25,757 nucleotides of DNA. It comes from a virus. The stretch lies in the IMG/VR virus record IMGVR_UViG_3300030060_005625, positions 1-25,757 of that record; one strand, given 5' to 3'. Position numbers and translations under genes: made by a program. The notes under the pieces are model-generated. The model was not told where the DNA came from and made no database searches. It was given only the letters and a program-made list of their open reading frames with translations. This document shows positions 2,344 to 21,643 of this stretch, piece after piece (positions within the stretch are counted from its first letter, which is position 1; every line of letters begins with the position of its first letter).

Positions 2344-2604
2344 TTATCTCCAAGGTAACATTGTCATACCAATTGAATTAAGTAGATACTCCATCACAAT
2401 CACAAATAGTAAACCACCACCTAATTGCCAAGCCCACCATTTCCAACCTTCCAAACCATCTACCCATTGACGAGTCTTAGAGTTTCTAGCCTTATCATAT
2501 AGTCCACTACTCTCACCTACTTTACTAGCCCAATAGTTCGGGTCTGTCCATTCTTTTATTTTTATTAACGGCCAACATATTGTCCGTAGTATTTTCATTA
2601 TCAT
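2344..2604 (-). CDS. Small membrane protein (86 aa)
   Basis: The ATG at 2602-2604 overlaps the TGA of the upstream methyltransferase as ATGA and has GGGAG five bases upstream, so I prefer it to the in-frame ATG at 2622. The product has an amphipathic N-terminus, a polar middle (YDKARNSKTRQWVDG) and a C-terminal hydrophobic span (LGGGLLFVIVMEYLLNSIG). The middle is rich in Trp. It probably sits in the inner membrane with one C-terminal helix. I do not recognise a family. Tight coupling to the methyltransferase suggests co-expression in the P3 operon. Confidence 0.7.
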   Translation of the reverse strand: MIMKILRTICWPLIKIKEWTDPNYWASKVGESSGLYDKARNSKTRQWVDGLEGWKWWAWQLGGGLLFVIVMEYLLNSIGMTMLPWR

Positions 2605-3830
2605 TTTTTCTCCCATATCCAAATCGGTTCACAGAACCTTTTATCTTTAGTTTCTTCAGCGAGTTTTAGTGACTCCTCACTATATTGTGTAGTATCTTTC
2701 GCAGTTCCAGCTCCACCACTATTAGGTCTTTTTGCCATCTCCATTCCAATACAACCTATATATTCCATGTCTCTGTATTCATCAAGAAACTCATTCATAG
2801 GATCACATATTTTTAACCAACATCTATCCGATGACCATTTAGAATTAGCATAAACATCTGATATGTTAATACATAACTTACCACCACTTCTTAAAGTTGG
2901 TAACATATTATCAAGAGCTTTGTGTAGAAATTGATTATTCCAATTATCAATGTCTTTATACCTAACCCAACTTTGATTATCATCATGACTATATCTTTCC
3001 ACATTAAAATAAGGTGGTGATGTAAATATAATATCAAAGGTGTCTTCGTATCCATCATAATAGAAGTCCTCAGCAGCCTCACAATAAAAGTCAACCTTTT
3101 TCATGGTTTCAAACATCGTAAGTTGACCTTCGTAGTAATCAGCCTGTTCTCTGTAAATCGGATGGTTCTCTTTACGAGGATCGACACCAACATACAACTC
3201 GGTGTTCTGACTAGCAAAGAAACCAGCTAACCTATCTCCCCATCCCATCGAGAAGTCCATAACATTTTTGACCTTGAATAAGTCGTACATAGCTTTTGCC
3301 ACATTTGGTTTGAACTGACTACATATGTACTTACGAAGTCCTATCATAACTCTTAATGCTGACCTATCTATCTTTGGTAGTTTCAGACTATATGCTGAAC
3401 CCATCAATGATGTCATGAACTTTTCAGACTCCCAAGTTCGTTTGGGACCAGGTGATACAGAACCATCTACTGACCATCTGTTATCTTGTTGGAAATAGTT
3501 AGATGATTTGTTACCGATATTATTTCTAGCAAAATACCATTGTTCACCGTGATAAAGTAATGGATATTCATAACCGTCCTCAGACCTACCAAACCACTCC
3601 CCTTCTTTCAGAATGTCATAAACCCAAGTTCCTTTTAACTTGTTAAAATCCTTACGACAATCTTCTTCGGTCATCTCCATAGTTGGCATCGAATAAGTCA
3701 TAGCGACTTTTGCCAGAGATTCCTTTACGTCATCTTTCTCGAATGTATCTTTTATGTAAGTCCATTCTTTTTCATCGATGTGAAGATATGGTTCTTGGTT
3801 CTTAAACTTGTCGAAATAATCTAGGTACAT
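2601..3830 (-). CDS. TSPPY-type SAM methyltransferase, paralogue 1 (409 aa)
   Basis: A methyltransferase-like domain occupies roughly residues 150-409. MDFSMGWGDRLAGFFAS (191-207) is a motif-I-like SAM loop, VGVDP (214-218) is the acidic residue after beta-2, and FTSPPYF (269-275) is a motif IV of the N4-cytosine/N6-adenine amino-methyltransferase type. The motif order is I then IV. No target-recognition domain is obvious; the first ~150 residues are unassigned. It is clearly paralogous to the 534-aa protein at 7587-9191: both share GWG-R--G--AS, a G-DP, TSPPYF--E-YS-DD-QS and a later NI-D. The ATG overlaps the HD gene stop as TAATG with GGAG four bases upstream. DNA is the likely substrate, but this is not proven. 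Confidence 0.8.
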   Translation of the reverse strand: MYLDYFDKFKNQEPYLHIDEKEWTYIKDTFEKDDVKESLAKVAMTYSMPTMEMTEEDCRKDFNKLKGTWVYDILKEGEWFGRSEDGYEYPLLYHGEQWYFARNNIGNKSSNYFQQDNRWSVDGSVSPGPKRTWESEKFMTSLMGSAYSLKLPKIDRSALRVMIGLRKYICSQFKPNVAKAMYDLFKVKNVMDFSMGWGDRLAGFFASQNTELYVGVDPRKENHPIYREQADYYEGQLTMFETMKKVDFYCEAAEDFYYDGYEDTFDIIFTSPPYFNVERYSHDDNQSWVRYKDIDNWNNQFLHKALDNMLPTLRSGGKLCINISDVYANSKWSSDRCWLKICDPMNEFLDEYRDMEYIGCIGMEMAKRPNSGGAGTAKDTTQYSEESLKLAEETKDKRFCEPIWIWEKK

Positions 3831-7097: not shown

Positions 7098-7587
7098 ACT
7101 TATTCTCCTTATATCTATACAATGGCTTTTGTTCCAATAAGTAAACTTCGCCTTTGACTTGTTTTGTTTTACCCCATTCGATATCACTAACTTTGATAAA
7201 CCCATATTTCTTATAGAACTCAATAGCTCTTGTATTCAAACTTCTAACTGATAAAACAATATCTCTACCTTTATTGTATTCGATAAACTTTTCAAATACC
7301 CTTTTACCACTACCATCACCTTGATTTTTAGCAGCAATCTGATGTAATATACAATCACCTTTTTGAGCTTCATAAGCACTTATCACTCTGTCTTTCTCGG
7401 TCATCATAGCAACTGCCTGTTTTCTTTTATAACGATTGTATGTGATTAGAACTTTTTCTTCCCATATCACATTATGAAATTCAATCATTGTTTCTATCTT
7501 ATCTTTTCTGATATGTGGAAATGTATCTCCATATTGTTTGAACACATCCATTATCTCATCTAAATTATCTAAAGTAGCATGATTCAT
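7090..7587 (-). CDS. GNAT-family N-acetyltransferase (165 aa)
   Basis: The GNAT core is visible: a beta-4 strand LHQIAAKNQ followed by the acetyl-CoA loop GDGSGKRVFEKF (about 91-102), then VLSVRSLNTRAIEFYKKYGF (about 111-130), the usual N--A--FY-K-GF end of the fold. The N-terminus (residues 1-60) is variable and probably sets substrate choice. Start ATG 7585-7587 overlaps the methyltransferase stop as TAATG, so it is coupled to that gene. The substrate cannot be read from sequence. GNATs in phages can modify proteins, tRNA or DNA bases. Confidence 0.85.
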   Translation of the reverse strand: MNHATLDNLDEIMDVFKQYGDTFPHIRKDKIETMIEFHNVIWEEKVLITYNRYKRKQAVAMMTEKDRVISAYEAQKGDCILHQIAAKNQGDGSGKRVFEKFIEYNKGRDIVLSVRSLNTRAIEFYKKYGFIKVSDIEWGKTKQVKGEVYLLEQKPLYRYKENKFV

Positions 7588-9191
7588 TATGGTTTCCTAA
7601 ATATAAAAATTGGTTCATATTTCATTGTAACTCCATCCACATCGACTTTGTTTTTGACATTACTTTGGTCAACTCCAATCATTGACGCCATTAACATTTT
7701 CAACTTACCTTCATACTTACCACCAAGTGATTCAACGATATCAATTGAATCTTGTTCCAACGGATGAAAGTTATCTCCACTTAATTTGATGTCAGCAATA
7801 TTCCAAAGTAAATATCTGTCATTTCTGAGACTTTCATAAGCATTTGTTAATGTTGGTTTTAGAAAGTTATCTCTCCAATCTGAATACATCGGATATGCCT
7901 TGAATGATTGTTCGTCATCATCTGAATATTGTTCTCTATCAAAGTAAGGTGGTGAAGTAAACACCATATCTAACTTACCTTTATATTGTTGAAAGTCAGG
8001 ATGGTCACCAACATGTTCAGAACCTAAACAAAAATAATGGTAAGTGTTTTTTGGTTCTTCCCAAAATGGATTTGTCTCCAAGCCATGTTCGTTGAAAAAG
8101 TCCGCAACATACTCATATCTTGACTTATTTATTTCGTCTATCCAATTGTCTGTGTTCGGGTCTGTTCCGATATAATGTATTCTTTTCTTAGACGCCATAG
8201 CACCAAGTATCCGACCACCCCAACCACTCGAAGGATCGTATATATTGAGTGGCTGGTCTTGATCAATGTGGTCGGTAAATTTTTCATACAGAAGTCTTGC
8301 CGTAAGTGGTGGAAAATTAACTGCTGGTTGTGAGTTCAGACTTAACCTAAATATCTGAAATGCTTTGGGAAACAATCTTGTCTTTAAATCATAATATCTA
8401 ATCATAAAAACATTTGTTTTAGATTTACCACTCTTAGTCATTACAGTATCAGTAACATTATCAACAGATAATTTAGACTTAAGTGTAGGACACCATAAGT
8501 TTGTAACCATCTCATCAGTTATTAATCCATCTTTATATGCCTGTTTGATTTCATCAGCAGTTATAGTTACATAACTTTTTAAATACTTTTCTTGATGTGA
8601 CTTAGCAATCCATAGTCTGTGATTCTTAAACTTTAACTTATTATCGTGATAATACTGTAACCACTCTACAGCACTTTCACCATTCCAATAAGGTAATTTA
8701 TTCTTTTCGTTTTCTTTTCTATCTTGTGATATAGACTTACTGAAAGTATACATTGAATCTCTACGAAGACCTCGTTTCATCGCCTTATAAAATAATGGCT
8801 TGTTAACGTCCTCTTTGATTCTATCATAGATAGAGTTTAGTCCTTCTCCCATATCTCCAATACGAGTCTTTAACATCGTAGGAAAAAACTGATTCACACC
8901 ATTCGCAAACTTATTGAAATTCTTGATTACATTTCTCTGACCATCATCAGCTTTTTCTATAAAGCCGTGTATATCATACTCTCTGAGTTTCTTAAACGAC
9001 TTGATGATATCGTCAATATTTTGACCGACCATTGGTGGTATCCCACGATTATCCCAATCCTCGATAATGAACTGACGAGCTTCCTCTATCCACTCGTCAA
9101 GTTCTTCATCAGTTTTTATAAATAACTCGTGATAAGTAATATTGATTTTAGAATCAATGATACCACTTTTCTCGTAGTAGTATTTACTCAT
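7587..9191 (-). CDS. TSPPY-type SAM methyltransferase, paralogue 2 with long N-terminal region (534 aa)
   Basis: The C-terminal ~230 residues match the 409-aa methyltransferase at 2601-3830. YDPSSGWGGRILGAMAS (about 318-334) is the SAM loop, YIGTDPN follows beta-2, and FTSPPYFDREQYSDDDEQS (about 411-429) is motif IV, with LLWNIADIK further on. The first ~280 residues are an unassigned, mostly helical domain not shared with the other copy and could carry target recognition. I start at ATG 9189-9191 (AAGG six bases upstream); a GTG codon just before it is open too. The start overlaps the 42-aa gene by 8 bases. It probably modifies exocyclic amino groups in DNA, by motif; this is inference. Confidence 0.8.
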   Translation of the reverse strand: MSKYYYEKSGIIDSKINITYHELFIKTDEELDEWIEEARQFIIEDWDNRGIPPMVGQNIDDIIKSFKKLREYDIHGFIEKADDGQRNVIKNFNKFANGVNQFFPTMLKTRIGDMGEGLNSIYDRIKEDVNKPLFYKAMKRGLRRDSMYTFSKSISQDRKENEKNKLPYWNGESAVEWLQYYHDNKLKFKNHRLWIAKSHQEKYLKSYVTITADEIKQAYKDGLITDEMVTNLWCPTLKSKLSVDNVTDTVMTKSGKSKTNVFMIRYYDLKTRLFPKAFQIFRLSLNSQPAVNFPPLTARLLYEKFTDHIDQDQPLNIYDPSSGWGGRILGAMASKKRIHYIGTDPNTDNWIDEINKSRYEYVADFFNEHGLETNPFWEEPKNTYHYFCLGSEHVGDHPDFQQYKGKLDMVFTSPPYFDREQYSDDDEQSFKAYPMYSDWRDNFLKPTLTNAYESLRNDRYLLWNIADIKLSGDNFHPLEQDSIDIVESLGGKYEGKLKMLMASMIGVDQSNVKNKVDVDGVTMKYEPIFIFRKP

Positions 9192-9312
9192 CACCTACCT
9201 TTTGACGATATAGTTTCGCGTCATGTTCATCACGAGCTAAAAATGTAGTTCCATCTTTCAAGGTGAAAGTTTTGTAGTTGTCAAACTGACCTTTACTTTT
9301 CTTTTTTGCCAT
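9184..9312 (-). CDS. 42-aa hypothetical microprotein
   Basis: ATG 9310-9312 overlaps the stop of the gene upstream as TAATG and has GAGGAG upstream. The product has a lysine-rich start (MAKKKSKG) and a short beta-like stretch (YKTFTLKDGTTFLARDEHDAKLYRQK). Its stop overlaps the methyltransferase start by 8 bases. Coupling on both sides and the ribosome site support a real gene. Function unknown. Confidence 0.6.
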   Translation of the reverse strand: MAKKKSKGQFDNYKTFTLKDGTTFLARDEHDAKLYRQKVGDE

Positions 9313-9657: not shown

Positions 9658-9689
9658 AATTTACGAAGATTTTGGTAATTTGTCAAGCA
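9658..9689 (-). promoter_or_regulatory. Promoter P4 (sigma70-like)
   Basis: TGCTTGACA (9689-9681), 17 bases ending in TTCG, then TAAATT (9663-9658). The whole -35 and spacer lie inside the last codons of the nucleosidase gene, and the TAA of the -10 box is that gene's stop codon. The predicted leader is about 17 nt and carries AAGGA. Confidence 0.78.
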
Positions 9690-10380
9690 CTTTTTCCTTA
9701 AATTTTACAATGCCTTTTCCAACATTCTCTTCCCAATCATCACCAGCATTTCCATCAGCCTCATCTGTAATATATTTGAATGATATGAATGGAACATCAT
9801 ATAGCTTACATACTTTTGCTAAAGCATATGCTTCCATGTCTACTACATCAACCAAGTTTTTCCAGTTAAATTGATCAATTGTAACAAATGAATCACCACT
9901 ACCACAAAGAACATTTTTACCGATAGGATTGAAATCAGAATCACTCTCTACTATTATGGGGATGTCTTTTTCAAATGGTGTTTGACCTAACTTAAAACCA
10001 AGACCAGATACATCCATATCTCTTTGAACAAATCGTGTGCAATCAACTAAGTCTCCTTTACGATATTTCCAAATCTGTGAACCAGCAGTTCCATAGTTTA
10101 TTACTAAATCATATGGAATGTGACTACCTAACTTACCAAACTTTTGTGTTAATTTATATGTAGCGTTTACTTTACCGACACCAGTATATAAGACATCATA
10201 ATCTTCTAATTGACTTTGAGTTTCAACCTCAAGTGCACAAACTATTAATGTTTTTTTATTTGTATTTCCATAACCCATTAGATTTGTATTACCTTCTGTA
10301 TGTTTAGGTTCGTATGGACACATCAAACAACCATGTCCACAACAATAACCTCGTTTTACTAAAAACTCTTGTGATAACAT
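9661..10380 (-). CDS. MTA/SAH nucleosidase-like protein with N-terminal CC-x3-C-x2-CPY motif (239 aa)
   Basis: Residues about 42-235 look like a purine nucleoside phosphorylase/MTA-SAH nucleosidase fold: LIVCALEVETQSQ near the start (candidate E51 or E53), YTGVGKVNA, VINYGTAG, VVDMEAYALAKVC (E183, ribose contact) and FKYITDEADG (D206, catalytic acid). These match the family's key positions. Ahead of this is LVKRGYCCGHGCLMCPY (C13, C14, C18, C21), which resembles the small DUF5522-type cysteine motif. The ATG overlaps the PhoH stop as TAATG, so the longer form with the cysteine motif is supported. It would free adenine from MTA, SAH or 5'-deoxyadenosine, beside Apt, which salvages adenine. Promoter P4 is built into its 3' end. 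Confidence 0.8.
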   Translation of the reverse strand: MLSQEFLVKRGYCCGHGCLMCPYEPKHTEGNTNLMGYGNTNKKTLIVCALEVETQSQLEDYDVLYTGVGKVNATYKLTQKFGKLGSHIPYDLVINYGTAGSQIWKYRKGDLVDCTRFVQRDMDVSGLGFKLGQTPFEKDIPIIVESDSDFNPIGKNVLCGSGDSFVTIDQFNWKNLVDVVDMEAYALAKVCKLYDVPFISFKYITDEADGNAGDDWEENVGKGIVKFKEKVLDKLPKSS

Positions 10381-11105
10381 TAATCATGACTCAAATCAAT
10401 CTCGTGTTCATCCTCATATGTTTTTAATATTCTCTTTACCAAAGGATGTCGGACACAATCTTCTCTATTAAAAGCCATATGATTGACACCCTCTACATTT
10501 TTTAATCTAAACCAAGCATCATAGAACCCACTCTTTTCATACGCCGTAACTCCGTTAGCTTTGAACTTATCACATTGTGACATATCACCTTGTATAATCA
10601 TTTTACAATCTTCTGATATTCTTGTCATCAAAGTCTTTATTTGCATCGGTGAAACATTCTGAGCCTCATCAAGTATCACATAACAATTCTCTAAGTTAAC
10701 TCCCCTTAGAAAGTTTAGGACACCAATCTCTAACTTACCATCCGATATCATCTTTGTTGCTCTTGCTTTACCAATAATTTTATCTAATATGGTAAATGTG
10801 GATTCGTTATATTGTTGTATCTTTGACGACAACTCACCTGGTAAATACCCTAACTTATCTTCATTACCAACATCTACGGTTGGATTGATAATGATAAGTT
10901 TATGATAAGGTGTTCCTCTTCTTAAGACATCTTGTAGAGCCCTATAGATGGACACATAAGTTTTACCAGTACCAGCAATCCCATGACACAATATAAGTTG
11001 TGTGTCTTCACCCCCTATGATATTATAAAATGTGTTTTGGTTACTTGTTTTTGGTTTGAAATTATTTACAATTTTTGGTATAGCACCAATCGTCTTTTTA
11101 GCCAT
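10380..11105 (-). CDS. phoH: PhoH-like P-loop ATPase (241 aa)
   Basis: Walker A is GIAGTGKT (42-49), Walker B is VILDEAQN (143-150), and the segments LGYLPGELSSKI and MIIQGDMSQCDKFKANG are typical of PhoH. Only the core ATPase/helicase-like domain is present, with no N-terminal PIN or C-terminal domain, as in the short PhoH proteins of many marine phages. Its function in phages is unsettled; RNA-related ATPase activity is the usual suggestion. The gene overlaps apt by 8 bases upstream and the nucleosidase by one base downstream, so all three are probably translated together. Confidence 0.93.
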   Translation of the reverse strand: MAKKTIGAIPKIVNNFKPKTSNQNTFYNIIGGEDTQLILCHGIAGTGKTYVSIYRALQDVLRRGTPYHKLIIINPTVDVGNEDKLGYLPGELSSKIQQYNESTFTILDKIIGKARATKMISDGKLEIGVLNFLRGVNLENCYVILDEAQNVSPMQIKTLMTRISEDCKMIIQGDMSQCDKFKANGVTAYEKSGFYDAWFRLKNVEGVNHMAFNREDCVRHPLVKRILKTYEDEHEIDLSHD

Positions 11106-11592
11106 ATTGTATTACCGACCTCACATCTAAGTTAAAGTTATCTACTCTTGGAACATACTCTAAATCAACTAATACTAAATTACCAACCACTTTGTAACCA
11201 GCTTCTTCTGCTAAGTCATTAGTTGCTTTTAATGTCCCACCTGTTGCTAAAACATCATCTACTATAACTACCTCTCCCTCACCAGGTTGTAGCTCTAATG
11301 TAGCAGTTCCATACTCTAAGTCATATGTTTCACTTACAAACTCACCTGGTGTTTTTCCTTCTTTTCTTGCACATATCACACCACCACCAAAGTGAAGAGC
11401 AAGTGCTGAAGCAAATATGTAACCACGAGAATCTATTCCAATCCAATAATTAGGATTTCTAACTAACCTACCCATATCCGTAACCACAGATACAAAAGCT
11501 TGCTGGTCTGCTAGTAGTGGGGATATATCTTTGAAATTAACTCCCTCTATTGGAAAGTCTGATATTTCTTTTATAAAATTTTTATAATCCAT
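11098..11592 (-). CDS. apt: Adenine phosphoribosyltransferase (164 aa)
   Basis: This is a full-length short-type APRT. It has FPIEGVNFKDISPLL (13-27), WIGIDSRGYIFASALAL (50-66) and the PRPP-binding loop VVIVDDVLATGGTLKA (108-123). It converts adenine plus PRPP to AMP and pyrophosphate. The ATG has AAGGA nine bases upstream, inside the end of the lipoprotein gene. The neighbouring nucleosidase can release adenine, and ThyX and MazG-like genes nearby also serve nucleotide supply, so a purine-salvage role during infection is likely. It is fairly unusual in phages. Confidence 0.93.
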   Translation of the reverse strand: MDYKNFIKEISDFPIEGVNFKDISPLLADQQAFVSVVTDMGRLVRNPNYWIGIDSRGYIFASALALHFGGGVICARKEGKTPGEFVSETYDLEYGTATLELQPGEGEVVIVDDVLATGGTLKATNDLAEEAGYKVVGNLVLVDLEYVPRVDNFNLDVRSVIQYG

Positions 11593-16899: not shown

Positions 16900-17000
16900 T
16901 ACCACTCTTCTCTTCTACCAAAGTCGTTCTTTGCTATTCTCTTTTTCAGATGTCTTTTATATTTCCAAAGAAACATCAACTTCTGTAACCTATCAACCAT
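16899..17000 (-). CDS. 33-aa basic microprotein
   Basis: ATG 16998-17000 lies inside the last codons of uvdE, and the stop overlaps the next ATG as TAATG. The product (VDRLQKLMFLWKYKRHLKK ...) is an amphipathic basic helix ending FGRREEW. The ribosome site is weak, so it relies on coupling to uvdE. Tentative. Confidence 0.45.
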   Translation of the reverse strand: MVDRLQKLMFLWKYKRHLKKRIAKNDFGRREEW

Positions 17001-17931
17001 GTAGTTCAAGATACTTAGCAACAGCCAACTCCTTGTGTTTAGCCTCTACCATGATATCAACATCATTACCATAAGTGTCAATATAATCGTAGACATAATC
17101 AGAATGGGCTTGAGGTCTAATTGACTCGTCAAGTCGTTCCTTACTGCGACTCTCGCTGTAGTGGACAACAGGTGTAATCCCCTTTGGCCAAGTTGACATA
17201 GCCATTTCCAAAGCCTCTTGTTCACTAAGCCCCCCATCACAAAAACGGTGGTGATGGTAGTCGAACACAATGGGCACGCCAATTCTACTGTATACTCCAT
17301 GATATAACTCCTTAACTGAATACATACTTGCTTTATCATCATTCTCTACCGTCAAACGAGATTTAACTCTATCAGGTAGTCTTTCAAAATTTTTACAAAA
17401 TCTTTCCATAGATGTTGGTTTATCTCCGTAAGCACCACCAATATGGATATTAATTTTATTGTATGGTGTTCTACTAAGATTCATCATATCAAATGTGTCA
17501 CCATGCATTGTCAAGTCACCAATACAATTCTCAACTACATGTTCATGTGGTGAAGTCAATACATTGAAAGGACCTGGATGTGATGTGATTCTAACACCGT
17601 GTGTGTCTACTTTTACACCAGCAGAGTGTAGATATATTTTAATCCACTTCAAGTCTTTTAGGTCTTCCCACTCATACTCAGACTTCCAAGGTGCTAAACC
17701 TGATGTGATACGAAAAAACTTGTAGCCATTCAATATGTTCCAAGAAATAATTTTGTCCAAATCTTTAGCATTAGCCAATGCAAGTTCACTAGCATAATCA
17801 ACACCTTTGGTATCAAAGGTTCTCTTAATCATACTACGACCTGTAGTAATTGGTTTAACTCCCTTTTCTTTACCACCATACTTTTGTGGGTATGACAGTT
17901 GCATGTTTATACACGCATAACCTATATTCAT
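16993..17931 (-). CDS. uvdE: UV-damage endonuclease UvdE/UvsE (312 aa)
   Basis: A TIM-barrel repair nuclease that nicks 5' of UV photoproducts and other lesions. Family landmarks are the start IGYACINMQL, a long NGYKFFRITSGLAPWKSEY segment, DTHGVRITSHPGPFNVL with metal-binding His, INIHIGGAYGDK, RLTVENDD, PIVFDYHHHRFC and VVHYSESR. Length fits bacterial members. ATG 17929-17931 overlaps the MazG stop as ATGA with GGAG nine bases upstream. In a marine lytic phage it would repair sunlight damage to the phage genome; T4 uses an unrelated enzyme, DenV, for this. Confidence 0.93.
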   Translation of the reverse strand: MNIGYACINMQLSYPQKYGGKEKGVKPITTGRSMIKRTFDTKGVDYASELALANAKDLDKIISWNILNGYKFFRITSGLAPWKSEYEWEDLKDLKWIKIYLHSAGVKVDTHGVRITSHPGPFNVLTSPHEHVVENCIGDLTMHGDTFDMMNLSRTPYNKINIHIGGAYGDKPTSMERFCKNFERLPDRVKSRLTVENDDKASMYSVKELYHGVYSRIGVPIVFDYHHHRFCDGGLSEQEALEMAMSTWPKGITPVVHYSESRSKERLDESIRPQAHSDYVYDYIDTYGNDVDIMVEAKHKELAVAKYLELHG

Positions 17932-18239: not shown

Positions 18240-18433
18240 TAAAATAACTCCAATTGATTTCGATTAGGTTTCATAGGCCTAAACCAATTACCATATTCAT
18301 CTATCCAAGTTTTCCAACCTGTTGCCGATAATTGTATTTCAATTGCTTGTAACATATTCATATCTAAATGGTCGGAACTTTCTAACGTAATCGGTAACTT
18401 ACTGTGTCTAATTTTTTTTATGTAATTACCCAC
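18239..18433 (-). CDS. Hypothetical protein (64 aa, GTG start)
   Basis: The frame opens at GTG 18431-18433 inside the end of the deformylase gene. No good ribosome site precedes it; an internal ATG at codon 25 is also possible. The product ends WKTWIDEYGNWFRPMKPNRNQLELF, and its stop overlaps the MazG start as TAATG. The C-terminal QLELF resembles a beta-clamp-binding peptide (Q-L-x-L-F), so clamp contact is conceivable. Otherwise unrecognised. Confidence 0.6.
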   Translation of the reverse strand: MGNYIKKIRHSKLPITLESSDHLDMNMLQAIEIQLSATGWKTWIDEYGNWFRPMKPNRNQLELF

Positions 18434-19047
18434 CCTTGATTTAAAAGAGTTTGTGCTTTCTTGTATTTTAACACTTTAACTGCATCACCTTTTTTAATCG
18501 TAACTAATTTGTTACGACCTATTTTCTTTTCAACTTGAACAGTAGTGTTTACTTTCCTATCCATACATACAATACCATTTAGATGGTCAATTTCGTGTTG
18601 AACACAGACAGACTCTAAGGTTCTTAACTCCGCGTCTTGTTTTTTACCTTGTTCTTTTTCCCAACTACCTTTACCATCACTTGGACTTTCTGCACCACTA
18701 AAATACCAACCACTCTCTGATTGAGCAGTTTGTATAATTACATCTCTGTATCTTTTGGTGTGAACTCCTTTGCCTGGATAAGATAAACAACCTTCATAAA
18801 AAGGTATCTCGTTGTGTTTCTCAATGATTTTAGGGTTGATGAGTACCAAAGGTTCACGAACATTGACAACGGCCACTTGTGCATCAATACCCACTTGATT
18901 AGCTGCCAACCCAATACCGTCCCCTCTTTTGTTAAGTATCTGAAATAGTTCTGTTGCGATAGATAGTCCTTCTTCAACTGACACCTCACGAAGCTTTTTG
19001 TTTATGATAGGGTTGTGTTCTTTTGTACAATTAATTACTTTCTTCAT
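18418..19047 (-). CDS. def: Peptide deformylase (209 aa)
   Basis: All three deformylase motifs are present: GIGLAANQVG (44-53), EGCLSYPG (85-92, metal ligand C87) and QHEIDH (150-155, H151, E152, H155). It removes the formyl group from nascent proteins. There is an insertion of about 25 residues between motifs 2 and 3 (rich in Ser, Gly, Lys), and a C-terminal extension of about 45 residues with VTIKKGDAVKVLKYKKAQ, longer than most phage deformylases. The ATG (19045-19047) has no ribosome site and sits where promoter P7 should start transcription, so the mRNA may be leaderless. Confidence 0.93.
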   Translation of the reverse strand: MKKVINCTKEHNPIINKKLREVSVEEGLSIATELFQILNKRGDGIGLAANQVGIDAQVAVVNVREPLVLINPKIIEKHNEIPFYEGCLSYPGKGVHTKRYRDVIIQTAQSESGWYFSGAESPSDGKGSWEKEQGKKQDAELRTLESVCVQHEIDHLNGIVCMDRKVNTTVQVEKKIGRNKLVTIKKGDAVKVLKYKKAQTLLNQGWVIT

Positions 19048-20419: not shown

Positions 20420-21643
20420 TTAATTAGTCTTACAAACGACTAAGTTTTTTTCATATGTTTCAAGTGATTTGATGTAGAATTTGAATATATCAAACTCCAT
20501 CTCACCTACATCACCACTATCTTGTAGCATTTCTGATAGATTAACTAACACTTGAAAATTTTCATTGTTCAATTGATTACAATCAAACTCCACACAAATA
20601 TCATGTTGTTCTGATATCTTGTTATGGCCATACAATTTTATTTTTTCCCCTAAATTAAACTGAGTATTTGGTTGTTCTTCCTTTACATAGTGACCAATAA
20701 TCTCTGAGTTTCTTAAATCTAAATATATCTTACTACACCAAGGCTCTAATTCATACAGCATCTGTTTAGTGCAATTATATGCTACAAAACCCACATCATA
20801 CTTGGGTGGCACTATCGGTTTTAAATACTCATCATGTTTTACCATATGTCCCCACTTACGAATAAAGTTACGAGTTGACCTAAGATTCTGAGCTAACCAC
20901 TCCGATGATTCTCTACCCTTCATAAACACTTGACCTGCTGGATTTCTCATAGCTCCATCTTTGAATCGTGAACCTCTACAGGTCATATGATATACGAACC
21001 CTTGCCATGTTTGTATAAATTTATAACCAGCCAACTGAAATCTGTTGAATATATCAGAGTCCTCTTTTGATTGTGGAGCATACAACGGGTCATGTCCACC
21101 GATACTTGTAAAGTCATCTTTATATATTGCCCAAGGAGCAAAGATACCATCTGTAACTTTATCTTCACCATATTTATCTTCTTCAAGAAACTTTAATAAT
21201 CCCATCTCATCAAACTCTTCGGGTTCTATACCAAAGTCTTGTAATATCTTTTCAGGACCGTCTGGATGTAGTGGTGGTTCTATCCGTGTAGCAGATACCA
21301 CCTTACCTCGTTCTAAATGTTTTAGAACTTCTTCGTCTAAACCAGGACAAGCATACATATCAGCATGATAAATCATCACAATATCATTACTAGCCATATC
21401 AACTAATGTATCGTAAAGTATCGTATGACCTAACCTTGTAGGTCCTTCGTTACGATGTATTTTTATATTGCCATCTTTTTCAGCAATCTCTTGCATCCAC
21501 TCCCAAGTTCCGTCATCAGAGAAATCATCAGCCCAACATATCTCATGTCGGTATCCAAGATTCTTTCTGATAGAGTTGTAACTCCATTGTAAATATTTTA
21601 GATTGTTTCTACTTGGTTGTATAAAACTTATTACCTTATCCAT
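20420..21643 (-). CDS. Family 2-like glycosyltransferase (407 aa)
   Basis: The N-terminal ~260 residues fit a GT-A fold: VISFIQPSRNNLKYLQWSYNSIRK, then WADDFSDDGTWEWM (37-50) for nucleotide binding, RNEGPTRLGHTILYDTLVDMASNDIVMIYHADMY with a D-x-D-like H-A-D (93-95), and later GHDPLYAPQSKEDSDIFNRFQLAGYKF, the typical acceptor/ED segment. The last ~130 residues (from about KYDVGFVAYNC) are an extra domain of unknown role. Donor and acceptor sugars are unknown. The ATG overlaps the end of the preceding glycosyltransferase gene by 8 bases. It probably helps build a surface glycan with its neighbours. Confidence 0.85.
   Translation of the reverse strand: MDKVISFIQPSRNNLKYLQWSYNSIRKNLGYRHEICWADDFSDDGTWEWMQEIAEKDGNIKIHRNEGPTRLGHTILYDTLVDMASNDIVMIYHADMYACPGLDEEVLKHLERGKVVSATRIEPPLHPDGPEKILQDFGIEPEEFDEMGLLKFLEEDKYGEDKVTDGIFAPWAIYKDDFTSIGGHDPLYAPQSKEDSDIFNRFQLAGYKFIQTWQGFVYHMTCRGSRFKDGAMRNPAGQVFMKGRESSEWLAQNLRSTRNFIRKWGHMVKHDEYLKPIVPPKYDVGFVAYNCTKQMLYELEPWCSKIYLDLRNSEIIGHYVKEEQPNTQFNLGEKIKLYGHNKISEQHDICVEFDCNQLNNENFQVLVNLSEMLQDSGDVGEMEFDIFKFYIKSLETYEKNLVVCKTN

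Follow-up and report, generated by a model that had tools for sequence, protein, structure and literature searches.

Why should a phage gene that resembles a nucleosidase begin with a short, cysteine-rich segment, and does this segment serve the enzyme to which it is joined or a purpose of its own? The question is raised by a virus record of 25,757 bases, which is referred to here as the window. A preliminary description of this DNA had pointed out a cysteine segment of the DUF5522 type joined to an MTA/SAH nucleosidase-like domain, and both parts are borne out by Pfam matches over the respective cut-offs (PF17653 and PF01048). The features of the window on which the argument draws are listed below.

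9661-10380, minus strand: fused ORF of 239 amino acids with an ATG start
10279..10380, minus strand: leader of the DUF5522 type, residues 1-34, MLSQEFLVKRGYCCGHGCLMCPYEPKHTEGNTNL, delimited by Pfam PF17653, alignment and pN/pS
10312..10344, minus strand: CC-x3-C-x2-CPY motif, residues 13-23 of the ORF (CCGHGCLMCPY)
10276..10278, minus strand: internal ATG, residue 35; leaders join their partners at or near the partners' own start codons
10291..10296, minus strand: GAAGGT, Shine-Dalgarno-like, within the leader, its GG 13 nt 5' of the internal ATG
9661..10254, minus strand: MTA/SAH-nucleosidase-like domain, residues 43-239 and stop, from PF01048, Foldseek and a PDB profile match
10378..10382, minus strand: TAATG, the phoH stop and the leader start, with a one-base overlap
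10380..11105, minus strand: PhoH-like ATPase, the upstream neighbour (PF02562, phrog_170)
11098..11592, minus strand: adenine phosphoribosyltransferase (APRT), two genes upstream (NCBIfam NF002636)
18418..19047, minus strand: peptide deformylase without leader (TIGR00079 95.9 bits, below the cut-off of 103.95)
16993..17931, minus strand: UvdE endonuclease without leader (TIGR00629 200.5 bits, cut-off 124.45)
20420..21643, minus strand: GT2-like glycosyltransferase without leader, about 58-61% identical to the leader-bearing L023, L024 and L025

PF17653 (DUF5522) matched residues 5-26 of the window ORF with 26.2 bits, over the gathering cut-off of 25, and the isolated 34-residue leader with 31.6 bits; in a control with 14 well-known genomes, seven gave a match at an E-value of 10 and none exceeded the cut-off. 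The match begins at position 25-27 of the 48 positions of the model and leaves the N-terminal half of the model unmatched. The DNA motif of the leader is found once in the window when up to three mismatches are allowed, and shuffled sequences gave an average of 0.03. The segment had been put at about 36 residues; it reads as 34, followed by a linker to the nucleosidase that is variable in length across the aligned sequences.

The TAA stop of phoH gives its last A to the ATG of the leader-nucleosidase ORF, and the suggestion that this TAATG junction goes with translation of the cysteine part has held up. Among 43 distinct leader DNAs, mean pS was 0.59 and pN 0.10, a pN/pS of 0.17. Purifying selection acts on the leader at the protein level, which rules out an untranslated leader. 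Cys13, Cys14, Cys18, Cys21 and His27 are invariant when the window leader is aligned with the leaders of 25 other loci, an invariance that for the cysteines and CPY is partly by construction in these 26 sequences, as the patterns RGYCCGH and GCLMCPY were used to find the viral leaders. Outside the search patterns, L2, S3, L7, P25 and H27 never vary among the 43 distinct leader DNAs. Judged by their residues, the four cysteines and one histidine probably form a metal site holding zinc or an Fe-S cluster. The spacing C14-x3-C18-x2-C21 fits the CX3CX2C cluster motif, which in radical SAM enzymes lies within a radical-SAM domain; no such domain is present among the two Pfam matches of the window ORF at an E-value of 1. 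AlphaFold gave no confident fold for the leader, either within the fusion or alone (pLDDT 40-63 for the block), and a sequence search of the PDB with the leader returned no match at an E-value of 10.

The nucleosidase itself is best read as ordinary. PF01048 (PNP_UDP_1) matched residues 63-223 with 56.2 bits (56-57) against a cut-off of 25.1. The VDMEA motif (Glu183) and the proposed catalytic aspartate in ITDEAD (Asp206) are present as described, and together with Glu53 they are invariant in 23 aligned sequences, the window included, and align with the Glu, Glu and Asp of the solved MTAN 4pr3. In the numbering of E. coli MTAN, we take the catalytic residues to be Glu12, Asp197 and, presumably, Glu174; mutants of Glu12 and Asp197 are named in PDB titles among the Foldseek matches. 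The best Foldseek match was the MTAN 5cce (E-value 1e-11, TM 0.60, from a model with a pLDDT of 67), and a profile search matched 41 PDB sequences, nearly all of which are named MTA/SAH or aminodeoxyfutalosine nucleosidases. Scores with NCBIfam nucleosidase models were below every matched cut-off (NF004168, 80.6 versus 129; TIGR01704, 53.6 versus 73.8). These comparisons point to a predicted MTA/SAH-type nucleosidase, which has in common with the MTANs of the PNP_UDP_1 superfamily the fold and the Glu/Glu/Asp positions of the solved structures and differs from them by the leader and by the NCBIfam scores below cut-off. The adenine that such an enzyme would set free could become AMP, as in known pathways, through the APRT encoded two genes upstream, which exceeds the NCBIfam equivalog cut-off (NF002636, 166.6 bits versus 125). 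Elsewhere in the window, two proteins contain TSPPYF (2601-3830 and 7587-9194, minus strand) and are presumably DNA methyltransferases; neither had an NCBIfam match at an E-value of 0.01.

A search for the fusion in other genomes, as had been proposed, recovered it in 22 further viral records, some of which are near-identical and one of which is cut by a contig end; a sequencing join artefact is thereby ruled out. When viral contigs were scanned with the whole protein, 40 loci were found, of which 18 carried leader and nucleosidase (one cut by a contig end), four the nucleosidase alone and 18 the leader only, sharing 31-44 residues of leader with the window protein. Scanning with the leader alone gave 49 loci, and a wider scan 50, including one new record (L208). 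Among the 51 viral records with a leader, the window included, the partner is the nucleosidase in 23, peptide deformylase in eight, UvdE in four and a family-2 glycosyltransferase in three; the rest comprise sulfotransferase-like (two) and P-loop-like (two) partners, a second cysteine-rich ORF (three), the type of L026 (one) and short tails (five), and these records are not independent, several being near-identical. The deformylase, UvdE and GT2 of the window, which lack the leader, have leader-carrying relatives in eight, four and three other viral records, respectively.

Pfam searches with one member per type supported glycosyltransferase 2, deformylase with SEC-C, and UvdE; L023, one of the leader-bearing relatives of the window GT2, matches Glycos_transf_2. 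The match of the sulfotransferase-like partner was weak (16.5 bits versus a cut-off of 22), and the P-loop partner is a putative one, named on a reading of its sequence. Forty-two viral records have a partner that is named, sulfotransferase-like or P-loop-like, and in all of them the leader is N-terminal and in frame, with no stop between motif and partner. Nine of the 51 records have short or unnamed tails; no leader without any tail was seen in this phage group, the shortest ORF having 49 amino acids. In L033 (2969-3742), the leader with a 'CLYSGLP' tail continues into the P-loop-like ORF, the start of which comes after a second KKGNTN stretch, and leader and 'CLYSGLP' tail occur nearly alone in L085. 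Leader-bearing deformylases end in a SEC-C-like cysteine motif (scored in L027 and seen in other sequences), which is not visible in the leaderless window deformylase. Named phages gave no match to the leader at an E-value of 1 and none to the consensus at 0.01. Weak, partial matches were found in phages, and on reading a related motif was present in a Synechococcus S-MbCM6 record, ACG-2014e, ACG-2014i and a Microcystis phage; it was absent from a fecal phage with a weak match.

The carriers change, and the number of leaders does not appear to. Whole-record searches of 49 viral records found one clear PF17653 match in each, and the match exceeds the cut-off in 46; 14 of the 49 are over 50 kb long. 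The records are contigs, many of them surely fragments, so second copies could be missed. A second match in one of the 49 had 13.7 bits and an internal stop. Each of nine other viral records that have the leader contained one copy. Leaderless forms made up 7 of 28 distinct nucleosidase ORFs, 17 of 24 deformylases, 21 of 24 UvdE and 8 of 11 GT2, counts that include a few partial copies of a single gene and that come from stretches fetched where whole-record searches had matches. Four records with a leaderless nucleosidase (G131-G134) had no leader anywhere in the record. Together with the other partners, the leaderless nucleosidases rule out that the leader is a part special to nucleosidases.

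In an unrooted tree, the leaderless nucleosidases of L072 and L076 group among leader-bearing ones, that of L072 at zero distance from the leader-bearing L013. The leader stands apart in both records, just upstream of the nucleosidase: as an ORF of 76 amino acids that follows phoH in L072, and as one of 91 amino acids that follows an APRT-like gene in L076. Trees built without the leader needed one change of leader label in deformylase, one in UvdE and four in the nucleosidase, at least three of these four being forced by well-supported branches. As the trees have no root, they do not distinguish gain of the leader from its loss. Homologues that lack the cysteine segment had been named in advance as a ground for rejecting the fusion. 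Such homologues exist, but given the selection on the leader they indicate that the nucleosidase can do without it, rather than that the leader goes untranslated.

The junctions suggest how one segment may come to stand before so many genes. The leader ends at, or a few codons before, the carrier's own start codon, and the internal ATG of the window ORF (residue 35) is likely the former start codon of the nucleosidase. The gene behind the leader of L071 begins immediately at its end, but in a different frame, and the two are not fused. Of 47 leader loci, 30 have a one-base stop/start overlap with the gene upstream, and these upstream genes differ; on reading of the sequences they include phoH, APRT-like genes, zinc-ribbon-like ORFs and an epimerase-like ORF. 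Before the carrier start of 35 fused genes, anti-Shine-Dalgarno scores ranged from -3.9 to -7.9 kcal/mol (mean -5.2, 83% at or below -4), compared with a mean of -2.6 and 22% at or below -4 for 119 in-frame ATGs inside these genes (Mann-Whitney p 1e-9); relatedness among the 35 genes makes this a non-independent test, and the spacing is often 13 nt. The leader's own start scored weakly (mean -1.7), no better than the control ATGs. In the window, GAAGGT encodes the K/E-G-N end of the leader, and its likeness to a Shine-Dalgarno site may be incidental. Six of seven partner types counted as starting directly after the leader are in frame, with P about 0.007 if frames are random and the types, which were chosen post hoc, are independent. 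In-frame joining thus looks commoner than chance, and fusion itself may be favoured; it may bring a benefit of its own, such as stability of a very small protein.

Relatives of the leader were also found outside this phage group. A search of cellular genome contigs with one narrow pattern confirmed one relative, a stand-alone ORF of bacterium TMED46. In the phylum of this bacterium, which we suspect to be Marinimicrobia/SAR406, 33 of 245 genomes had a PF17653 match over the cut-off. Thirty-eight bacterial loci were read (L093-L130): 11 are fusions with an aldo/keto reductase (L095, L098, L100, L102, L104, L113, L114, L119, L127, L129 and L130), in genomes of 0.7-1.0 Mb and with the partner Pfam-tested in one (L095), 20 are short ORFs and seven did not show the motif sought. 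No clear common partner emerged from the bacterial DUF5522 gene neighbourhoods that were read. Plasmids gave four weak matches to the leader, one of which comes from Aureibacter, where a protein annotated as DUF5522 is encoded next to a gene with the annotation diphthine-ammonia ligase. A split-off leader tail in L145 (2514-2744, minus strand) has a CWC cysteine pattern and resembles this Aureibacter protein; it had no Pfam match. C1orf53 is presumably a relative in eukaryotes.

In other viruses, scanning with the pattern CCGxGCxNCP[YF] gave at least 120 viral contigs (L236-L355). Among the 120 matches listed, 88 ORFs stop no more than 35 residues beyond the motif and 32 have a longer tail. 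For 64 of the 120 listed, a ribonucleotide reductase (RNR) gene on the same strand precedes the DUF5522-like gene by no more than 1 kb, a count that has no matched control and in which many contigs are near relatives with shared lineages. One such RNR is phrog_367, class-II-like, with a B12-type insertion domain just below the Pfam cut-off. Eight of eight of these viral records searched whole had one copy of the mini-protein. The related motif also follows purF in Microcystis phage MaAM05 (L356) and precedes purC in Synechococcus phages ACG-2014e (L357) and ACG-2014i (L358). As a lead only, the RNR, purF and purC neighbourhoods hint at a role beside nucleotide metabolism.

Compared to DUF5522 as known from PF17653, the leader has the same C-C-x3-C-x2-C-P-Y core and small size, but it covers only the C-terminal half of the model and extends unrelated enzymes at their N termini. 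Likewise, the DUF5522-like mini-proteins of other viruses, such as those beside a class-II-like RNR, have the core of the leader and often a K-G-N-like end, and differ from it in that most end shortly after the motif. A search of the literature for DUF5522 by name found no paper among those covered. Auxiliary genes of the SAM cycle, namely methionine adenosyltransferase and MTA/SAH nucleosidase, have been described in phages from Lake Baikal (PMC7678222), and they resemble the window gene as a phage-borne nucleosidase in a SAM-cycle setting; two passages of that article mention no cysteine-rich leader, and the word 'fusion' is absent from its main text (PMC7678222).

Several explanations of the leader can be weighed against these observations. 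The cysteine site could be a regulatory or catalytic metal or Fe-S domain of a SAM-recycling nucleosidase, much as the preliminary description had imagined a link to SAM recycling or radical-SAM by-products. The nucleosidase is indeed the commonest partner, and in L060 and L067 a gene that we take, from its start, to be metK lies one gene upstream of the gene preceding the leader-nucleosidase. However, the same leader is found on deformylase, UvdE, GT2 and aldo/keto reductase, a quarter of the distinct nucleosidase ORFs do without it, the linker has no fixed length and the leader is placed without confidence in the model, and this explanation is now quite improbable. Even harder to believe is that the leader lies outside the protein, with translation beginning at the internal methionine and the frame upstream open by chance. 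The internal start does have the better anti-Shine-Dalgarno score (-5.2 versus -1.7), but the 42 partner-bearing records without a stop between motif and partner, the low pN/pS, the overlap with phoH and the cysteines and histidine that stay invariant across partners all argue against it.

It is unlikely, though less so, that the leader is an N-terminal tag taking its enzyme to a place or a partner in the infected cell. A tag would agree with a leader that is N-terminal and in frame in all 42 records with a larger partner; it agrees poorly with one clear copy per record, with a carrier that differs between related phages and with short ORFs that have no large partner. A little more doubtful is a small mobile cassette that shifts from one start codon to another and persists through its own spread or by acting as a translation-initiation segment, in effect a portable ribosome-binding site. 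Such a cassette would be in keeping with the varied upstream and downstream genes, the one-base overlaps and the anti-Shine-Dalgarno scores at carrier starts. Those scores come from related genes, however, and 103 of the 120 listed other-virus genes, most of them short, have a K-G-N-like end, which could alone give the Shine-Dalgarno-like stretch. Moreover, the leader DNA varies at synonymous sites and the protein is conserved, which indicates that the moves are old and that selection is on the protein.

We consider it probable that the leader is a self-contained DUF5522 mini-protein, carried once and expressed as the N-terminus of whichever gene follows. The same leader on unrelated enzymes, at one copy per record, suggests that it is kept for its own sake. 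According to this explanation, these phages would carry one such mini-protein and express it as the N-terminal end of the next gene, joined at or near that gene's start codon. The purine-rich K-G-N end resembles a Shine-Dalgarno site, so that mini-gene and next gene could share the junction, the carrier's own ATG perhaps serving as a second translation start, and loss of the stop in a preceding mini-gene would fuse the leader with the next gene. A broader proposal, which we put forward tentatively and hold to be rather less than probable, is that DUF5522 is a once-per-genome mini-protein repeatedly attached to the starts of unrelated enzymes in phages and some bacteria, with a C-terminal end that doubles as the next gene's ribosome-binding site and a job independent of the carrier, which might lie in metal or redox chemistry for nucleotide synthesis.

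Domain fusions are routinely taken as a sign that the two parts work together. One 34-residue part on four unrelated named enzyme families of related phages and on a fifth in bacteria, at one clear copy per record, would, if true, be a clear counter-example. DUF5522 also becomes testable, as the leader can be deleted or mutated apart from its carrier, and in other viruses the frequency with which its relatives follow ribonucleotide reductase provides a first lead to its function.
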